The notes below the pieces were generated by a model that worked only from the letters and a program-made list of their open reading frames with translations, was not told where the DNA came from and did not search any database. From a virus, in IMG/VR virus record IMGVR_UViG_3300017990_000058, positions 1-22,976 of that record: 22,976 bases of DNA. The stretch is one strand, 5' to 3'. Within the stretch, counting starts at the first letter, position 1. The number at the start of each line of letters is the position of its first letter. Positions 5,108-18,115 of the stretch are shown here, piece by piece. A program made the position numbers and the translations under genes.

Positions 5108-5541
5108 TATTCAAGTTCTCCTTTCAACGTGTAATTTGGCCACGCATTAGTACGACAAAATTTTGTTATGCCTTGTCTAAGTTGCTTAACATCATAAGCA
5201 ACATAACTAGCAGACTCAGCAAGCATAATATTAAACTTCATATCATTATGTTCAAACCAGATATAGCAAATAGGAACTCCATTTGCGTATGCGTAACCCG
5301 CTTCGAACATAGTACCTACGTCTTTATCATCTGTAATTGCGACCATAAAGTCGCAATGTTTAATTTGATACGCGTTTTCTTCAAATACTTCTTCTGATGT
5401 CATGTCATTTTCAGGAGTATAAAGACAATCATCTTTAGGTGAGTAATAGGAAATCTTAACAAGTTGCAAACTCAATTTTACCAATTCAACGCGCTTTGTT
5501 TGTTCATCATTAAAAAACGGGCCCGCAATATAAGCTTTCAT
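5107..5541 (-). CDS. nucleoside 2-deoxyribosyltransferase
   Basis: A 144-residue protein of the nucleoside 2-deoxyribosyltransferase family, which exchanges the base on a 2'-deoxynucleoside or cleaves the glycosidic bond. It has the N-terminal AGPFF (residues 6-10), CDFMVAITDDKDVGTMFEAG with Asp64, Asp71/72 and the expected nucleophile Glu80, then AYANGVPICYIW. Length and motif order fit the family. The start has a strong AAGGAGGTAACAA and overlaps the helicase stop as ATGA. It is followed at once by the HD phosphohydrolase; together they could break down host deoxynucleotides and re-route deoxyribose, or act on a non-standard nucleotide. Confidence 0.88.
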   Translation of the reverse strand: MKAYIAGPFFNDEQTKRVELVKLSLQLVKISYYSPKDDCLYTPENDMTSEEVFEENAYQIKHCDFMVAITDDKDVGTMFEAGYAYANGVPICYIWFEHNDMKFNIMLAESASYVAYDVKQLRQGITKFCRTNAWPNYTLKGELE

Positions 5542-6917
5542 TTGTTACCTCCTTGTTGAAAACGTTGTTGTAGTTGGTCCCTAAACTCTCTACCAAAGTT
5601 ATCTTTAGTTTGAAGTGCAGCGTATACACTTTCATCAACAGTATTTCGAGTAAGTAAATGGTGGATAGTAACAGGCATTTTTTGATTTTGTCTATAAATA
5701 CGCCCGTTAAGTTGTCTGTATTGCTCATATGACCAGGGTAGACTATACCATATGATATTATGGCCTCCATCTTGTAAGTTCACACCGTGGGAAATAGATG
5801 CTGGATGTACTATTAGACGAGTTAATTCTTTTTTGTTCCAAGATTGAATAAGTTTAGAGGATTCTTTAACAGAAACGCCTCCGTATATTACAGGAACATT
5901 TGGAAAAACTGATTTGATAAAGTCGTACTCAAATCTATACTGTATAGCAATAAGAAAGGATTGAGATTTATAGTTAGCTAAGATGTCAGATAAGGTATCT
6001 AACTTTGTGTCGTGGATTTTATGAGCTTTATGTCCTTCATCATACATTCCGCCGCTAACAAATTGTCTAAGCTTATTTGTTAACGCTGCTGAATTTACTG
6101 CCATAAATGATGTTGAGTTTAACTCGATTAAAAATTGTTGCTCTAGTATGTTGTAATCCTTTTGATGCTTAGACGGGAGTGAACAATAGATGATATTGTT
6201 TGTAAGTTTAGGTAGTTCTAAATAATCAGATGATTGCATCTTTAAAGAAATATCTTTAACTTGATTTCCTATTTTTTTAAATGAAGATCTAAGCGGCTCC
6301 CATGTATAGCCGTAATAATCAACTTGTCTAAAATATTCTTGTCTAAACCTGTACCAACTAGTTCCTAAACGTTTACCCCGATCAAGAATATAGTACTGGG
6401 ACCAGATATTCATTAAGTTACCCGCAACAGGCTCACCAGATAAAATTATGTGTCGCTTAAACAGAGCAACCATACCTCTTAACATTTTAAAACGTTTAGT
6501 TTTAGGATCTTTTACAGCGGTTGATTCATCAAAGATAATTGTGTCAAAAGGAATATTTTTAGACGTGCGTTGCTTTTTTAAAGTACTGTACAGCCATTTT
6601 ATTGATTCATAATTTGTAATGTATATATTTGCGGGCTGCTTAAATCTTGCGTCTTTATGTTTACCGTGCAGAATTACGTGAGTTAGAGATTTTGTATGAT
6701 CCCATTTTTGTATTTCTTGAGGCCATACGTTGTAAACAACTCTAAGCGGCGCAATGATTAGACAGCCTTTAGACTTCTTAGCCTCAAGTAGGCGTTTAAT
6801 AGCAGTTAAGACTACAACAGTTTTACCTAATCCCAAGTCTAAGAATAAAGCGCAGTCGGGATGTTTTAACGTGTGGAGGACTGCCTCAACTTGATATTTA
6901 TGCGGGTTTATTTTCAT
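5538..6917 (-). CDS. SNF2/DEAD-type helicase
   Basis: A 459-residue superfamily 2 helicase of the SNF2-like type found in phage replication operons. Visible motifs: HKYQVEAV at the N-terminus; Walker A in LDLGLGKT (residues 27-34, Lys32-Thr33); Asp130-Glu131-Ser132 as motif II; LSGEPV as motif III, where SGTP is usual; a C-terminal lobe with HPASISHGVNLQDG (motif V) and QLNGRIYRQNQK (motif VI, arginine finger). I chose the ATG at 6917, 20 bases inside the upstream gene and preceded by GGAAG. An in-frame ATG at 6971 lacks a ribosome site. It probably remodels or unwinds DNA during replication or recombination alongside PolA and SSB. Confidence 0.92.
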   Translation of the reverse strand: MKINPHKYQVEAVLHTLKHPDCALFLDLGLGKTVVVLTAIKRLLEAKKSKGCLIIAPLRVVYNVWPQEIQKWDHTKSLTHVILHGKHKDARFKQPANIYITNYESIKWLYSTLKKQRTSKNIPFDTIIFDESTAVKDPKTKRFKMLRGMVALFKRHIILSGEPVAGNLMNIWSQYYILDRGKRLGTSWYRFRQEYFRQVDYYGYTWEPLRSSFKKIGNQVKDISLKMQSSDYLELPKLTNNIIYCSLPSKHQKDYNILEQQFLIELNSTSFMAVNSAALTNKLRQFVSGGMYDEGHKAHKIHDTKLDTLSDILANYKSQSFLIAIQYRFEYDFIKSVFPNVPVIYGGVSVKESSKLIQSWNKKELTRLIVHPASISHGVNLQDGGHNIIWYSLPWSYEQYRQLNGRIYRQNQKMPVTIHHLLTRNTVDESVYAALQTKDNFGREFRDQLQQRFQQGGNK

Positions 6918-7239
6918 AGACTGGGACTTCCAATTGTCTTGTGCTTTGATCAAGAATGGGTGAAACAACATCAGCTTTTACTTTTTCTAATGCTTCTGCT
7001 GTTTCTTCATAAAGATCCATTTTTATAAATCTTGTATAGCGTCCCAGTAAACGTTCTAGAATTTTAGCTCGTCGTTTATAGTTTATTTCGATAATAATTA
7101 ATAGTTCAAGTTGATATTGGGTTAAGTCTTTAATTGATTTAGACAGGACAACCCAATTCTGTAGATGTACAGCTTCTTTTTTAATTTCATCTTCTGACAC
7201 GTTAGTGTTTTTGAGAAATTTAGGCTTGATCAATTCCAT
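6898..7239 (-). CDS. hypothetical protein between polymerase and helicase
   Basis: A 113-residue soluble, helical, charged protein (begins MELIKPKFLKNTNVSEDEIK). No membrane segment, Cys pair or nuclease motif is visible, and the family is not recognised. The ATG at 7239 is preceded by AAAGGATAAGCTT, and the polymerase stop sits inside that ribosome site, so the two genes are coupled. A longer in-frame start at 7281 would lie inside the polymerase gene and lacks a ribosome site. Its 3' end overlaps the helicase start. The conserved place between PolA and the helicase suggests a replisome accessory role, which is inference only. Confidence 0.75.
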   Translation of the reverse strand: MELIKPKFLKNTNVSEDEIKKEAVHLQNWVVLSKSIKDLTQYQLELLIIIEINYKRRAKILERLLGRYTRFIKMDLYEETAEALEKVKADVVSPILDQSTRQLEVPVYENKPA

Positions 7240-7243
7240 AAGC

Positions 7244-9226
7244 TTATCCTTTCTTATAACGATTAGTAATAAATCCTTCACTGTCTATTGGAAGCCCAGG
7301 ATATGTTTGTTTATCAGTATCACACATAATCTTGGTAAAGTGATCTAAAGATCCGAAATTCTCAGGGTCATGTGATACGACTTCATCATGCACAGAAAAT
7401 ATTACGTTGTAACCTTGTTTTATTAATCGTATTTTTGCCTCAGCTAAAATGTCTCTGGCTAATCCTTGAGCAGCGTTTTCAATAAGACGGCCGGGTATAA
7501 TCTGAAGTCGTTTCCACTTGCGTGTGTATGGATCACTTCCCATAAACGTTATACAAGGTCTAATCTCTCCCCACGGCGTTTCTTTAGGCTCAACGAGCGG
7601 CTTATAATACGCAATTCGTCTGCCCGACGGAAGTATCATAAAGAGAAAATCGTGATCATATAAAAATCTAATATGTTTATAGCGTGTTAGAGCTTTCTCA
7701 ATAATAGCAGTTTTTGCTGCAGTGTAAAGTTTGTCCCACAGAGTAACTATCAAATGAAAAATTTCACGATAGAGTTGTACTGTACGTTTTGATTCATACA
7801 AGTCAATATCGAATCCATAGGAGACACATGTTTTATGGAATTGCGTATATCCCATTCCGTATCCCAAACCTAAAATTGCTGTTTTAGCATGTGTTCTCTG
7901 GTGTTTGTTCACATCTTCATAAGTAATACCGTTATAAAGCTTTGTTGCAAACCACTTGTACTGATCCATGTTCTTGCGAAATAATTTCAGAGATTCTTCA
8001 TCTCCTGCTAACCAGCAGGTAACTCTATTTTCAATACTTGAAAAGTCTGATACGATTAACTTATAGCCAGGTTTAGCTGCCACAATTGGTCGTACCATAG
8101 CAGATCCGACATACATAGGATCGTCGTAGAATAGCATAAATGTTTCAAGCGCGTAATGTTTCACAAGATACGCAACTAAATCTGGGTCCTTAACTTTAGC
8201 GTTTGGTAAATTGTGCACCTGAAAATTTTTACCGCCCCACCGTCCCGTAGTAGCTCGGTGGTAGAATAAGATGTCGTGTATAAATCCGTTTTTATCTACA
8301 GAATCAATAAGCCTATCAAACTTCTTAGTTGATGTACGACTCATTTTCTGACGTATTGTTAAAACATCAACTACAGGTTTAGGTGGTTGTAGTTTTGATT
8401 CTAATATAGTTTTAACTGTATTAGCTGTTAAGTCAGGTAACTCTAGTCCTTGTTTTTTGGCCCATGCAATAATCTTGTCACGTTGTCCGGGCGTAGCAAC
8501 ATCGCCATTCGTAATACGCTGTAGCTTTGCAACTTGAGTAGTTTCATAATCATCAAGGAGATGTTTTAAATTTTTAACTGTCTCTATATCTATAGGTACA
8601 CCGTTAACATTCATGTTAACAGTCATTAACCATAATTGACGTTCATAATTGAGCAGTTTGGCATAAGGTAATACTTTAGCAATTGCTCTTTCTGCTTGTA
8701 CATCTTGGATGCAATAGCTATACATGTCTTCATAATCTTGTGTTGCAGCTTCATAGGACCAGCGTATATGAGGATTTGACTTTGTAGGTTTTCTTGGTTT
8801 TGAGAGTTTATTGATTAAATAGGTGCCGCGCTTATCTTTTTGTATATCTAAATTCAATGCTTTTCCACAATCAGCAAGGTGAGCAGGTAAAGCAAATGAT
8901 GTTGCAAATGCCATTGTGTCGTGATATTGTTCAAGCGGTATCTTAGGCCAGTCAAATTGTTTTGTACCGCAATAATTCCAAATAAGAAATTCGAATTCTG
9001 CATTCCAAGCGTGGAGTTCCCACCCTAGTTTAATTCGTTGTAGTAGCACAGCTATATCTGAAAGGTTTGTTGTCTGTGGTGTATAAATACAGGGCTCTTC
9101 ATCGTTAAACGCAAATGACAGGCAGATAATTCTAGTAGACGGGTGATTGGCATATTGGAACGCGCCTACTTTTTTTAAATCCGCTTCTGAGTATGTTTCA
9201 AAGTCATGGTAGATTATATTAGGCAT
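7244..9226 (-). CDS. family A DNA polymerase with 3'-5' exonuclease domain
   Basis: A 660-residue replicative polymerase. The N-terminal DnaQ-like exonuclease shows Asp8 and Glu10 (YHDFETYSE), WNAEFEF near residue 75 and YCIQDVQ as the third exonuclease motif. The polymerase part has motif A (SDFSSIENR, about residue 391), motif B (RTHAKTAILGLGYGMG, about residue 438) and motif C (VHDEVV, about residue 612). There is no 5'-3' exonuclease domain, as usual for phage PolA. I chose the ATG at 9226 because the product then begins directly at the exonuclease domain (MPNIIYHDFET). The frame is open to 9286, but that extension lies within the structured leader. The gene follows a 162-base leader with an unusual RNA structure, unlike its tightly packed neighbours. 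Confidence 0.96.
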   Translation of the reverse strand: MPNIIYHDFETYSEADLKKVGAFQYANHPSTRIICLSFAFNDEEPCIYTPQTTNLSDIAVLLQRIKLGWELHAWNAEFEFLIWNYCGTKQFDWPKIPLEQYHDTMAFATSFALPAHLADCGKALNLDIQKDKRGTYLINKLSKPRKPTKSNPHIRWSYEAATQDYEDMYSYCIQDVQAERAIAKVLPYAKLLNYERQLWLMTVNMNVNGVPIDIETVKNLKHLLDDYETTQVAKLQRITNGDVATPGQRDKIIAWAKKQGLELPDLTANTVKTILESKLQPPKPVVDVLTIRQKMSRTSTKKFDRLIDSVDKNGFIHDILFYHRATTGRWGGKNFQVHNLPNAKVKDPDLVAYLVKHYALETFMLFYDDPMYVGSAMVRPIVAAKPGYKLIVSDFSSIENRVTCWLAGDEESLKLFRKNMDQYKWFATKLYNGITYEDVNKHQRTHAKTAILGLGYGMGYTQFHKTCVSYGFDIDLYESKRTVQLYREIFHLIVTLWDKLYTAAKTAIIEKALTRYKHIRFLYDHDFLFMILPSGRRIAYYKPLVEPKETPWGEIRPCITFMGSDPYTRKWKRLQIIPGRLIENAAQGLARDILAEAKIRLIKQGYNVIFSVHDEVVSHDPENFGSLDHFTKIMCDTDKQTYPGLPIDSEGFITNRYKKG

Positions 9227-9270
9227 TAGGAATATTGTCTCCTGGAGTCTCTTGGAGTCTCCTGCATAAC

Positions 9271-9378
9271 AAAAAAGACCTGCCAACTATGTATTAAGTG
9301 CCCACCCGACACTTTTAAATACGAGCAGCTGCGGTTGACTAAACCGTAGTTAAAGATTTTTATTGCATAGCTGGCAGG
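9271..9378 (-). ncRNA. three-way-junction RNA with terminal U-run upstream of DNA polymerase
   Basis: Read on the minus strand, CCTGCCAGCTATG (9378-9366) pairs over all 13 positions with CATAGTTGGCAGG (9291-9279), one pair being G-U. Inside lie two more hairpins: CGGTT/AACCG (9346-9342 with 9336-9332, 5-base loop) and AAGTG/CACTT (9314-9310 with 9300-9296, 9-base G-rich loop). The closing stem is followed at once by TCTTTTTTG (9278-9270). The element fills a rare gap in an operon whose other genes mostly overlap. It could be an attenuator that lowers polymerase output relative to SSB, a riboswitch-like leader, or a processed RNA. I do not recognise a known class. Confidence 0.6.
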
Positions 9379-9388
9379 CATCATAGAA

Positions 9389-9958
9389 TTATCCAAATAG
9401 CGCGTCAACATCTACGTCTTTAGCAACAGTTTCTTCTTTAGCATCAGTTTTTGCGTCTTCAATAAGATCTTTAAAATCTTCATCTGCTGAAGCTCTACCA
9501 TCAAGACGTTCTGCGTCACGTGTTTTCATGACATTATTGAGACCAAATGACACGCCTTTATTACCGTTTTTATCATAATAGAAAGCTGTAATAGAGGCTC
9601 TTGCGTACATTCCGCTATAGACGTCGTCAGCATTAAAAAGTAATTCACCCTGCTGGTTAATGACTTGCGGCTTTTCAAAGGACGACACGTTAACGAACAT
9701 ACAATCAGCATATAGCGCATCATCACGTTCATTACCATCACGAAATGGTGATCGAATGTTTTTGGGCCAGGTTTTCTGATCAGGCCCGAACTTTTTAGCA
9801 ATCGCTTCGGCTGCTGCTTCTTTCATTTCAGTAAGATCTGTGCCCTTTTCAAAGATCATACTAACAGAGTATTTTTCATCATCGTTTAGCGATTTACCTG
9901 GTTGAAGTAAACGAGCATAGCTTGCTCTAAATTCTGGTGTAATAATTCGTGTTCCCAT
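9389..9958 (-). CDS. single-stranded DNA-binding protein, Enc34/DUF2815 family (short form)
   Basis: A 189-residue protein matching the DUF2815 family, known as Enc34-type phage SSB. Visible elements are the opening TRIITPEFRASYARLLQPGK, KYSVSMIFEKGTD, SPFRDGNERDD, and a VYSGMYARASITAFYYD strand followed by GVSFGLNNVMKTRD. The acidic C-terminus ends DVDVDALFG, like the tails of many SSBs that recruit partner proteins. The start at 9958 has the strongest ribosome site of the region (AAGGAGG, 8-base spacing) and matches the usual family start. The frame continues upstream into a zinc-knuckle extension (separate entry), so a 226-residue form may also be made. Downstream comes the structured RNA and PolA. 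Confidence 0.9.
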   Translation of the reverse strand: MGTRIITPEFRASYARLLQPGKSLNDDEKYSVSMIFEKGTDLTEMKEAAAEAIAKKFGPDQKTWPKNIRSPFRDGNERDDALYADCMFVNVSSFEKPQVINQQGELLFNADDVYSGMYARASITAFYYDKNGNKGVSFGLNNVMKTRDAERLDGRASADEDFKDLIEDAKTDAKEETVAKDVDVDALFG

Positions 9959-10069
9959 AATTGTTTCCTCCTTGGTTTTAGTTGCGGGTTTCATTGTTTC
10001 GCCCTTACAAATAGGGCATTGTGGAATTGAGTCATAATAGTGTTGGCTATGTTTAGGACAATATTTCAT
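9959..10069 (-). CDS. in-frame zinc-knuckle N-terminal extension of the SSB (long form)
   Basis: The SSB frame stays open upstream for 37 more residues from an ATG at 10069 that overlaps the stop of the 155-residue gene as ATGA. The extension reads MKYCPKHSQHYYDS followed by IPQCPICKGE, a C-x2-H/C-x2-C pattern typical of a small zinc ribbon or knuckle. Random coding of such a motif is unlikely, so I take the extension to be translated by coupling, with a second, stronger start at 9958 giving the short form. A TTG at 10093 could extend it by eight residues. This would yield two SSB isoforms from one frame; alternatively the whole gene simply begins at 10069. Confidence 0.55.
9967..9973 (-). 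promoter_or_regulatory. internal ribosome binding site of the short SSB form
   Basis: AAGGAGG, eight bases before the ATG at 9958, lies inside the open frame of the zinc-knuckle extension. It is the best match to the anti-Shine-Dalgarno sequence in this part of the operon and decides the internal start. Confidence 0.8.
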
Positions 10070-10533
10070 CGATTTTTTCTTGTGCGATACCAATACAGAC
10101 AGGCACGCGAATCTTTTTTAGAATTAGGAAAGTGTTCACGAATATCAGCTGCAATTTCATCATCTGTCATATGAGCCCACTCATCTGAGTAAAGCATGGA
10201 CTTTACATATGAACCCATAAATCGTTGCGCGCGGGGTATAGATTTTTTTCTGAGTTTAACTTCAACTGATACAATTTCCCAGTCCATTCCGTTAACAGTG
10301 TCCCAAATTTTTTGGCAATGTTTGAACTTACTATCGACCTTTTTAATTTCTGTGAGGCCAACATTGACACGAAGTTTGATAATGTGATTTGCTTTCAATT
10401 GCATAAGACTGTCAGCTGAGTTAATAACTAAATAATCAAAGTTTGATTTACGTCCAGCTTCATTTGCGTCAAATTCATCCTTGTACAAAGCTTCAAATTT
10501 AAGATCTGTAAAGTTCAAGAGAAACGATTTCAT
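10066..10533 (-). CDS. hypothetical protein upstream of SSB, 155 aa
   Basis: A 155-residue soluble, basic protein. The ATG at 10533 follows GAAAGGATTG, and the stop overlaps the ATG of the long SSB form (ATGA). The N-terminal two thirds alternate strands and basic helices (KVDSKFKHCQKIWDTV, VEVKLRKKSIPRAQRF). The last 35 residues (DDEIAADIREHFPNSKKDSR, then LYWYRTRKNR) resemble a small C-terminal module I associate with several phage proteins of unknown function. The family is not recognised. The position between DUF932 and SSB suggests a replication or recombination accessory, possibly nucleic-acid binding given its basic character. That is inference. Confidence 0.75.
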   Translation of the reverse strand: MKSFLLNFTDLKFEALYKDEFDANEAGRKSNFDYLVINSADSLMQLKANHIIKLRVNVGLTEIKKVDSKFKHCQKIWDTVNGMDWEIVSVEVKLRKKSIPRAQRFMGSYVKSMLYSDEWAHMTDDEIAADIREHFPNSKKDSRACLYWYRTRKNR

Positions 10534-10550
10534 ACTAATACAATCCTTTC

Positions 10551-10571
10551 GGGAGAGCTATTAACTCTCCC
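10551..10571 (-). repeat. perfect 7-bp hairpin between DUF932 and the 155-aa gene
   Basis: GGGAGAG/CTCTCCC with a 7-base loop, just upstream of the ribosome site of the 155-residue gene. In the direction of transcription it is followed by GAAAGG, not a U-run, so it is more likely an RNA-stabilising or processing hairpin than a terminator. Confidence 0.6.
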
Positions 10572-10581
10572 TGTTTTAAAT

Positions 10582-11541: not shown

Positions 11542-11580
11542 CGTTTTTCCTATTTTGTTTTATTTGTTATTGTTGAGTAT

Positions 11581-11609
11581 AGCGTACCATACAACAAAAG
11601 ACGCGTAAA
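11581..11609 (-). promoter_or_regulatory. internal promoter of the leftward operon
   Basis: On the minus strand TTTACG (11609-11604), 17-base spacer ending in TGG, then TACGCT (11586-11581). The spacing and the TG just before the -10 box match the other phage promoters found at 15399-15427, 15440-15468 and 21208-21236. The match to 15399-15427 extends further: TATGGTA sits exactly 12 bases after the -35 box in both, and both continue with a CAATAACA element. A-rich tracts upstream could act as an UP element. The expected start is about 33 bases before the 60-residue gene. Confidence 0.6.
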
Positions 11610-11638
11610 GGCTTTTTTTTAATTTTTTTCACTTTTTT

Positions 11639-11779
11639 TTAACTTTTTACAATATTTTTTAAACATCCAAGCACAAGTAGGAAATTTAAAAGAACTGCAA
11701 ATGATGTTATGAGTCCAGCCTCTTTATAAACTCCTATAGCAAACATGCCTAAAATAAGTAAAACAATTAAACTTTTCAT
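11639..11779 (-). CDS. tiny membrane protein, 46 aa
   Basis: A 46-codon gene whose ATG overlaps the stop of the upstream 63-residue gene as ATGA. The product is almost wholly hydrophobic, with two predicted membrane helices: SLIVLLILGMFAIGVY and ITSFAVLLNFLLVLG, separated by a short KEAGL turn, ending KNIVKS. No family is recognised. It is one of three consecutive tiny membrane-protein genes (11639-12157), a typical phage accessory cluster that often carries host-takeover or exclusion functions. Low length is the main uncertainty; the overlap and two clean helices support it. Confidence 0.55.
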   Translation of the reverse strand: MKSLIVLLILGMFAIGVYKEAGLITSFAVLLNFLLVLGCLKNIVKS

Positions 11780-12841: not shown

Positions 12842-13534
12842 TTATGCCGTATCATTGTTGTTGCCATTTCTCCCCCCTAATATCATCCAGTATAGACGAT
12901 TATTTTGTTTTTCCCTCGCAATAGCCCATGCAGCATCTCTCGCAGCCCTTACATCAGCCCTCGCAGCAGCCCGCGCAGCATCCCACGCAACAGCCCACGC
13001 AGCCCACACAGCAGCCCTCGCAGCATCCCACCACGCATCCCACGCAGTAGTCAACGCAGCATCCCACCACGCATCCCACGCAGCCCACGCAGCCCTATCA
13101 GCAGCCCTCGCATCAGTCCACGCAGCAGCCCTCGCATCCCTCTCAGCAGCCCTCGCAACAACCCTTAAATCGTCATTGCCTGTTTTTAGATATTGAATAA
13201 CAACGTCGGGCGCATCCCACATATCAATTACGTCAAGGGCACATAATCTTGCGAACTTCCGCAAAATAGGCGTGGCGTCATACCCCCATAGGTATTTGCG
13301 TTCCGTGGCAGCAATTTTATCGTCACCAATAACCATATCTCCGCCCAAATCAACACGCCAAACCATTCCCCCAGGCGCATATTCAAGGGCGTCCAGAGGC
13401 TTTACACTTCCATGCAACCCCTGTTTACACAGGATAGGCTCACAAGCAACGGTATGCGTAACTCCCGCTTTAATAGTGCGCCCATCGCCGTATTGTAGCT
13501 TGCAATCGTTTTGTGAAAAATACCATGCTTTCAT
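12842..13534 (-). CDS. phage protein with long Ala/Trp/Asp helical repeat (DUF7666-like N-terminus)
   Basis: A 230-residue protein in two parts. Residues 1 to about 130 form a domain (MKAWYFSQNDCKLQYGDG, LHGSVKPLDALEYAPGG, ATERKYLWGYDATPILRKFA) that resembles phage proteins I know as DUF7666. From about residue 135 to 215 runs an Ala-rich repeat built from AAW, DAWWDAA and ARAA units, predicted as one long helix with regularly placed Trp. The tail is polar (REKQNNRLYW). I chose the ATG at 13534, directly after AAAGGAGGCGGG, over an in-frame upstream ATG. The gene is much richer in G and C than all neighbours and is flanked by a duplicated fragment, both signs of recent acquisition. Function unknown. 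Confidence 0.8.
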   Translation of the reverse strand: MKAWYFSQNDCKLQYGDGRTIKAGVTHTVACEPILCKQGLHGSVKPLDALEYAPGGMVWRVDLGGDMVIGDDKIAATERKYLWGYDATPILRKFARLCALDVIDMWDAPDVVIQYLKTGNDDLRVVARAAERDARAAAWTDARAADRAAWAAWDAWWDAALTTAWDAWWDAARAAVWAAWAVAWDAARAAARADVRAARDAAWAIAREKQNNRLYWMILGGRNGNNNDTA

Positions 13535-13588
13535 CCCGCCTCCTTTGGCGGGGCCGGCAAGCCGTCCGGTAACCCCTTTATCCGGCCC
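13535..13588 (-). promoter_or_regulatory. leader hairpins overlapping the ribosome site of the Ala/Trp-repeat gene
   Basis: Two perfect inverted repeats lie just before the ATG: CCCGCC/GGCGGG (13547-13552 with 13535-13540), whose loop and 3' arm hold the ribosome site AAAGGAGG, and GGGCCGG/CCGGCCC (13582-13588 with 13551-13557). They share two bases, so full pairing of one limits the other. This could gate translation of the gene. Confidence 0.5.
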
Positions 13589-13668
13589 TCTAAATCTCAG
13601 CATTAAGCCGGACCCCGTTCCATTTCGCACTCGGCTTGCCCTTGCCCCTTAAATACTTGCCCAAATCA

Positions 13669-13875
13669 TCACAAGCCTTGTGGTACTTGATTCTCAAGAT
13701 ACCACTCAGCAAATGCTTTCATCTTTTCACGTGGTATGCTTATTCTGACATACGGACTTATTTCAATAATTGCACTTGTCCCATTGGCAGTAAAACTATA
13801 ATTGTTGAACGCAATTCCCTGTTCATTTAAACCTGTTCTTAACTGCAACAATGATTCGCAATCACATGGTCTCAT
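13669..13875 (-). CDS. hypothetical protein, 68 aa
   Basis: A 68-residue protein (begins MRPCDCESLLQLRTGLNEQG) with Cys4 and Cys6, a beta-rich centre (AIIEISPYVRISIPREKM) and a C-terminal helix KAFAEWYLENQV. Its ATG overlaps the DUF2800 stop as ATGA. A degraded copy of its 3' end lies 940 bases downstream, on the far side of the Ala/Trp-repeat gene. The family is not recognised. Confidence 0.65.
   Translation of the reverse strand: MRPCDCESLLQLRTGLNEQGIAFNNYSFTANGTSAIIEISPYVRISIPREKMKAFAEWYLENQVPQGL
13684..13723. repeat. intact copy of the 40-bp duplicated segment
   Basis: This is the copy inside the 68-residue gene that corresponds to 12743-12782: 35 of 40 bases match, in the same orientation. 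Together the two form a direct repeat framing the GC-rich cassette. Confidence 0.7.
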
Positions 13876-15074
13876 GATTTTTCCTCTTTACTCATGTGCT
13901 CCTCAAAATCATGTGCTGCGTTAACTAAAATAGCTTTCTTAGGACTTGATTCAGGAGCTATTGTAGGATTACCTTTTATATAGTCAATGTAGCTTGTGAG
14001 TTTTTCATGTTTTTTCTTATCGATGATTTTAAGTACTTGCGGCGGTGATTTGAGTTTCTTGGTAAAAATGTCACCTACTTTCATTCTAAACTCTTTTCGA
14101 AGCACGTCTTTCATTACAGACTCATCTTTCCACTTTCTGGTCACCCGTCCTTCTACAAGTTTGAAATCGTCAATAGGGATGCCTTTGAGCAGCAACCCGT
14201 GCGCATGAACTCTTACATTAGTAATCCACGTTTCTAAAAACTTCAACAACTGCAGTGCTTTGGAGATGTCTGTGTTTGATAGTTTAAATGGATCTGTCAT
14301 CTCCTGTTCATACGTGTTAACTTGTGTAGCATCAAATGTTTTAAATTCTTGTCTTGCGACGTTTAATGCCAGCTCAGCTTGATATTTGCACGTACCGCTT
14401 GCAGTGCACCAGCGACATGCTTCTTCTGATGCTTGGAATGTGGGATTTTTAGAATTTGCATTTTTGATGGCGGGCTGCACAATATTCTCAAGCCATAGCT
14501 TTAAGTCTCTTGGATCATGTTTTGCTATTTTATATTGATTACCGTCTCTATCACGCGGTTGAATAATGATTGTATGGATACTTTCATACGTTTCAAGTAA
14601 CTTCCCTGCAGCCATAATCGCGTATAGTTTTGGTTGCGGTGAATCTGCAGAAACAGAAACGCCTTTACCGCCTTTTAGATCTACAACAATAAGAGTGTCA
14701 AATTTTACATCAATTATACAATCAGCAGTACCGTATATATCTTTTGTTAAATAGACCTTTTTTTCATACGACATTTTTGCGTCGGGATACGTGTCTTTTA
14801 AATTCCAAATAGAGTCAATGTAAAAACGTACTGTGTCTTCAAATTCTTCAGTAAACACAATATCAAAACCGTCTATTTTAAATGTTTGTCCCAGCAATTG
14901 TGACGGGTCTAAATCTGGATCACGTAAACACTCTTCACTAATTTTATGCATCAAAGTTCCTTCTGCGGCATATATAGACGGTTTTGCATTTGAATAATCC
15001 TGTATAGACGCACTTCCAGGACATGTCAACCATCTTGAAGCAGAACTTGGACTTAAATAAGCGTGTTTGGCCAT
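13872..15074 (-). CDS. DUF2800 family Cas4/RecB-like nuclease
   Basis: A 400-residue protein of the DUF2800 family, a PD-(D/E)XK exonuclease related to Cas4 and RecB and common in phage replication operons. Visible: LSPSSASRWLTCPGS with Cys18; EGTLMHKISEE with His43; GTADCIIDV with Asp118; VVDLKGGKG with Asp132 and Lys134 as the D-x-K catalytic pair; and a Cys cluster ACRWCTASGTCK at about residue 220, fitting the Fe-S or zinc cluster of Cas4-like nucleases. The usual family length is close to this. The start overlaps the upstream stop as TAATG. The likely role is DNA-end processing for recombination with the SSB encoded in the same operon. Confidence 0.9.
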   Translation of the reverse strand: MAKHAYLSPSSASRWLTCPGSASIQDYSNAKPSIYAAEGTLMHKISEECLRDPDLDPSQLLGQTFKIDGFDIVFTEEFEDTVRFYIDSIWNLKDTYPDAKMSYEKKVYLTKDIYGTADCIIDVKFDTLIVVDLKGGKGVSVSADSPQPKLYAIMAAGKLLETYESIHTIIIQPRDRDGNQYKIAKHDPRDLKLWLENIVQPAIKNANSKNPTFQASEEACRWCTASGTCKYQAELALNVARQEFKTFDATQVNTYEQEMTDPFKLSNTDISKALQLLKFLETWITNVRVHAHGLLLKGIPIDDFKLVEGRVTRKWKDESVMKDVLRKEFRMKVGDIFTKKLKSPPQVLKIIDKKKHEKLTSYIDYIKGNPTIAPESSPKKAILVNAAHDFEEHMSKEEKS

Positions 15075-17842: not shown

Positions 17843-17938
17843 TAGCACAGTAAGCACAGTAAAACTGGTCAAATGTACAGTAACTCGTACACTAACTTTT
17901 TGCGCAAGTGATTGAAATGTATTTATATTTCTTATTTA

Positions 17939-18036
17939 GTACAGTAAATACAGTAAATAATAAATTATATATGCTAACCTATTCTAGTACTTTTATCTAT
18001 AAGATAGATGAGCCCTTTTTACTGTATTTACTGTAC
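17939..18036. repeat. 19-bp perfect inverted repeat in the candidate origin
   Basis: GTACAGTAAATACAGTAAA (17939-17957) is repeated exactly in inverted form at 18018-18036, with 60 AT-rich bases between the arms. Each arm consists of two ACAGTAA units nine bases apart. Inside the spacer ATCTAT/ATAGAT (around 17996-18009) forms a further small hairpin. Confidence 0.85.
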
Positions 18037-18115
18037 ATTTTAACAGTATGGTGAATTATGTCAATAGCTTAACCTAGTACAATAAGAGAATTTTACTGTA
18101 CACTATACCGTATGG

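Follow-up and report, generated by a model that had tools for sequence, protein, structure and literature searches.

A putative leaky terminator with a large folded loop behind the SSB gene of a phage replication operon

The SSB-polymerase gap and its surroundings

The virus record analyzed here (22,976 bases, the whole of which is referred to below as the window) carries a replication operon on its minus strand, in which an Enc34/Gp2.5-type SSB gene precedes the genes for a family A DNA polymerase (Pol) and a helicase (Table 1). Homology to known SSBs starts near an in-frame ATG at about 9958. The SSB and Pol genes are separated by 162 nt (9388-9227), the length given in the original prediction, which also described the gap as lying in an operon where almost all genes overlap. 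This second point needs qualification: there are further gaps, for example at 10534-10581 and 11542-11775. Much of the first of these, 48 nt long and two genes upstream of SSB, is taken up by a 7-bp GGGAGAG hairpin (10551-10571) with no U-run on the coding strand; the second, of ~230 nt, includes imperfect TTTTTTTTAA-like repeats (coding-strand A-tracts) at 11612-11662. Upstream of the Pol start codon there are ~2.5 repeats of a GGAGACTCCA unit, which are perhaps duplicated ribosome-binding sites.

Table 1. Positions of genes and other features in the window.
Feature	Position	Strand	Evidence or remark
Exonuclease gene	13872-15074	-	Replication operon member
SSB gene, Enc34/Gp2.5-type	9389..10093	-	PF10991 Enc34_ssDNA-bd, E 5.5e-43; phrog_112, E 1.3e-45
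Promoter-like TTGACG-17-TATGAT, 10/12, inside SSB 3' end	9380..9408	-	Promoter scan; function doubtful
P1 5' arm (CCUGCCAGCUAUG), ~10 nt past SSB stop codon	9366..9378	-	Fold prediction
Interior, 74 nt	9292..9365	-	Fold prediction
P1 3' arm (CAUAGUUGGCAGG)	9279..9291	-	Fold prediction
U-run UCUUUUUU, expected RNA 3' end	9271..9278	-	Sequence; shuffles
Purine-rich ribosome-binding-site region (GGAGACTCCA/AGAGACTCCA/GGAGACA) ahead of Pol start	9239..9262	-	Sequence reading
Family A DNA polymerase gene, start ATG 9226	7244..9226	-	phrog_17, E 9.5e-87; PF00476
Helicase gene	5538-6971	-	Replication operon member

A closing helix with a U-run and a 74-nt interior

On the minus-strand transcript, positions 9378-9366 pair with 9291-9279 to form a closing helix (P1) of 13 bp, one of them G-U, exactly as originally predicted. 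Its base (CCUGCCA/UGGCAGG) is GC-rich, its pair probabilities in the ensemble fold are 0.92-1.00, and it contributes ~21 kcal/mol to the predicted stability of the element (-35.3 kcal/mol with P1, -14.2 for the interior alone). The U-run expected behind the helix is present, but the six U do not follow directly: they are preceded by UC, for a complete run of UCUUUUUU. Dinucleotide shuffling of the gap (40,000 shuffles) never produced a comparable arrangement, defined as a 13-bp helix, no more than one of its pairs being other than Watson-Crick, with six or more T among the next eight positions. The minimum free energy (MFE) of the element has a z-score of -3.9 to -4.05, with none of 200 shuffles as good. 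Structure alone is not unique in the window, since several other segments in a scan of 110-nt tiles also have z < -3.5; the combination of helix and U-run in the SSB-Pol gap is.

The interior is less well determined. Of two internal hairpins originally predicted, the MFE structure contains the 3' one (7 bp, 9314-9296), which, like P1, is also firmly kept in the centroid fold. The 5' one (CGGUU/AACCG, 9346-9332) belongs to an alternative fold that is 0.5 kcal/mol less stable; the MFE structure has another arm in its place. There are several near-isoenergetic folds, and the 5' half is poorly defined. Most likely, the branched 74 nt amount to no more than a large loop that folds on itself.

Measured against intrinsic terminators, P1 as modeled supplies the GC-rich, stable helix that should stand just before the release site, and UCUUUUUU the U-run within 0-2 nt of the helix. 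Loops of 3-8 nt are usual in such terminators, if not strictly required, and a standard terminator scan of the window with that loop range does not list the element. With its 74-nt loop, it is therefore proposed to act in the manner of a terminator, though an atypical one, rather than to be a standard member of the class.

Searches for sequences of the same kind gave little. No Rfam family matches at gathering score, and the best result of a loose search (RT-7) has 9.7 bits against a gathering score of 116.8, in agreement with the original reading that no known riboswitch or phage RNA class could be recognized. A covariance model of the element found only chance-level matches, and no homologue, among 236 related loci; no exact match to the P1 arms turned up in a pattern search of viral contigs; BLAST of the gap against phages returned nothing; and there is no second copy among the window's listed repeats. 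Scans with single proteins (Pol, SSB, and helicase in viral contigs, Pol in genome contigs) yielded no close relatives; the best Pol relative among the matches listed, at locus L168, is 39% identical.

Terminators behind SSB genes in relatives

Position offers the informative comparison. It was made with more distant loci, taken as samples (up to 80 per scan), whose non-redundant set of phage SSB genes in this family numbers 131; the stops of other genes in the same loci served as controls. A compact terminator was defined as a stem of 5 bp or more containing no more than one mismatch, a loop of 3-12 nt, a T-run, and a dG of -10 or below, within ~110 nt of the stop codon. By this definition, which was picked after part of the set had already been viewed, compact terminators lie behind 48 of the 131 SSB genes and 34 of 732 other genes among the sampled loci (Fisher, 3e-22); these rates are approximate, given the sampling and the simple longest-ORF gene calls. 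For genes followed by a gap of at least 30 nt, again among sampled loci, the counts are 39/92 for SSB and 19/246 for others (2e-12). SSBs in prophages of bacterial genomes, dereplicated against the first set at 80%, follow the same pattern (8/22 vs. 7/105, p 7e-4; with gaps of at least 30 nt, 4/10 vs. 3/35, p 0.03), with three of the eight prophage terminators lying within the Pol 5' coding region.

The stems behind SSB mostly begin 3-33 nt past the stop, and in 40 of the 48 cases Pol is downstream on the same strand. Their frequency depends on spacing: terminators are found in 14/25 loci with an SSB-Pol distance of 25-60 nt and in 7/9 at 61-130 nt (together, 21 of the 34 with Pol 25-130 nt past SSB), and in 2/9 at 131-250 nt. 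Many relatives have none, above all where SSB and Pol are tightly packed (3/27 with a spacing of at most 24 nt); the feature is thus dispensable. Long-loop stems with a T-run (loop 13-120 nt, at least 11 pairs) are commoner behind SSB genes (20 of 132, the window included) than behind others (35 of 732), but part of these stems lie outside the gap. That phage SSB genes are so often followed by terminators may not have been described before; a brief literature search, too small to show absence, found no description of them.

Individual cases vary in form. At L168 the terminator is GAGGGGUGGAAACACCCCUC-UUUUU, 7 nt past the SSB stop; L030 has a 63-nt, internally structured one, GGGGCUGA...UUCAGCCCC-UUCUUUUUU. 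Strong post-SSB hairpins with no T-run are also seen, at L028 (3867-3965, a long stem-loop of ~84 nt) and L199 (2611-2650); these suggest that in some phages the hairpin serves mRNA processing or the mRNA 3' end.

The element in the window has a GC-rich helix and a U-run in common with compact post-SSB terminators such as those of L168, L077, L056, and Pseudomonas phage KPP23 (L005), as well as their location, within a few tens of nucleotides of the SSB stop and before a co-directional gene, in most cases that for DNA polymerase. With a stem that starts ~10 nt past the stop of an Enc34/Gp2.5-type SSB gene, and a co-directional gene next, it falls within the ~110 nt allowed for post-SSB terminators. 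It differs in its interior, structured and 74 nt long where the compact loops have 3-12 nt (the limit of the scan), and in having no sequence similarity to them: the enrichment concerns position, with no sequence homology between the element and the terminators of relatives. Since distant relatives often have an ordinary terminator at the same place, only the large branched loop is unusual. Judging by sequence and position, the element is taken here to be functionally the same thing as the relatives' terminators, with an unusually large folded loop.

Interpretation, and other repeats in the window

The likely role of the element is that of a leaky intrinsic terminator, placed immediately past the SSB gene and keeping SSB above polymerase. 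The hairpin as modeled would probably halt most transcripts ahead of the Pol gene. Once the P1 3' arm was transcribed, with the preformed interior hairpins drawing the two arms together, the GC-rich base would close just upstream of UCUUUUUU and most RNA polymerases would be released, leaving an SSB message that ends in a stable hairpin. Only read-through transcripts would then reach the DNA polymerase and helicase genes, which would set a high SSB:polymerase ratio. In the part of the window from the U-run to the start of Pol, no sigma-70-like promoter scored 9/12 or higher, so that polymerase expression would need read-through, or else antitermination. The 74-nt loop, atypical of efficient intrinsic terminators, could itself weaken termination. 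That termination occurs, that it is partial, and that it affects the protein ratio we infer from the fold and from the relatives. The original prediction included a reduction of polymerase, relative to SSB, through a terminator or attenuator; position favors this, given the counts for relatives above, and the expectation of more SSB than polymerase is supported by analogy, through terminators at the same position in distant relatives.

There is a parallel in phage T7, where the terminator T-phi lies directly behind the most expressed gene, gene 10, and genes 11 and 12 are expressed from read-through only (PMC5592923). In both cases a terminator (for the window, a predicted one) directly follows a gene whose product is needed in quantity, with downstream genes reached, or in the window expected to be reached, by read-through. 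T-phi differs in acting on T7 RNA polymerase and in following a capsid gene, where the candidate in the window follows SSB. Confirmation of a leaky terminator here would add SSB-Pol dosage to T7 capsid dosage among the ratios that terminators set. A simple and recurrent phage layout is suggested, in which a leaky terminator past SSB would allow a single operon to yield stoichiometric SSB in bulk and catalytic polymerase sparingly; the recurrent post-SSB terminator is worth more than this single RNA. The large-loop version would be a test of how large a folded loop an intrinsic terminator tolerates.

The hairpin could instead serve in mRNA processing or stabilization, as an RNase III site or a 3'-end block that parts the SSB and Pol messages without termination. 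Such a role has precedents in the RNase sites between T7 genes (PMC5592923) and perhaps in the hairpins of L028 and L199, and the 80 nt downstream of SSB stops are in general more structured than controls when T-runs are ignored (48% with z < -2, against 13%). It is nevertheless unlikely here: the window has a U-run, as do most of the hairpins found in relatives, although the scan demanded T-runs of the latter.

A regulated attenuator, in which P1 closure and with it Pol expression would respond to a ligand, a dNTP, or a protein (such as SSB or an antiterminator of the phage) bound by the branched interior, is very unlikely. Like terminating riboswitches and attenuators, the element is a structured RNA with a helix and U-run ahead of a gene; the interior is branched, its 3' hairpin is well formed, P1 sits right on the U-run, and the promoter-like site just upstream would yield a leader RNA. 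Unlike them, it matches no known family, even at loose Rfam thresholds, and has no conserved binding core; an unsystematic look identified no antiterminator helix competing with P1. The lack of a structural homologue among the 236 related loci, the poorly defined 5' half of the interior, and the plain hairpins of relatives also count against regulation. The ligand-, protein-, or dNTP-sensing domain of the original prediction thus finds no support, with neither a homologue nor a conserved interior. A lineage-specific elaboration of a terminator site common in replication operons of this type, with an interior that responds to SSB, a phage factor, or a nucleotide and tunes read-through into Pol accordingly, is very improbable as well.

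It is highly improbable that the element is a separate small RNA of ~100 nt, made from a promoter of its own and ended by its own terminator. TTGACG-17-TATGAT is correctly placed and stranded for it. However, promoter-like sites barely exceed chance in the same region (54 found, 44.4 expected), the predicted start at ~9373 (inferred from spacing) would lose ~5 nt of the P1 5' arm, and no homologue is known from the searches above. There is similarly little to recommend a plus-strand antisense RNA, a DNA-level cruciform, or an insertion element. The plus strand does fold as well as the minus strand or slightly better (z -4.78), forming a clean three-way junction in which one arm has 10 bp, as follows from an inverted repeat with few G-U pairs, and G-U/A-C patterns favor neither strand; the minus strand is chosen only by the U-run, found on that strand alone, and by gene direction. 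Against a plus-strand or DNA-level role, the list of promoter-like sites from the scan has none on the plus strand from 7705 to 9279, and neither a second copy among the window's repeats nor a sequence relative was found. A 52-aa protein gene, with the fold incidental, is scarcely credible: a frame is open across the gap, from ATG 9384 to a TAATG overlapping the Pol start, but its codon score (-0.11) is like that of off-frame sequence (-0.08) and falls below the whole range seen for 52-codon stretches in the main phage genes (minimum -0.009, mean 0.17), such a frame arises in 9.5% of shuffles, and it has no match in Pfam or among phage proteins.

Repeats are found elsewhere in the window as well. 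The protein encoded at 12842-13630 (minus strand) has a repetitive C-terminal half, rich in alanine, tryptophan, aspartate, and arginine (AAWDAARA-like), that is coded by imperfect 12-base tandem repeats. In the gap between the primase and packaging genes (17864-18113), motifs of the type TTTACTGTA/TACAGTAAA recur, and among them is an inverted repeat that is perfect over 19 bp (17939-17957 with 18018-18036); the motifs look like operator sites or an origin.
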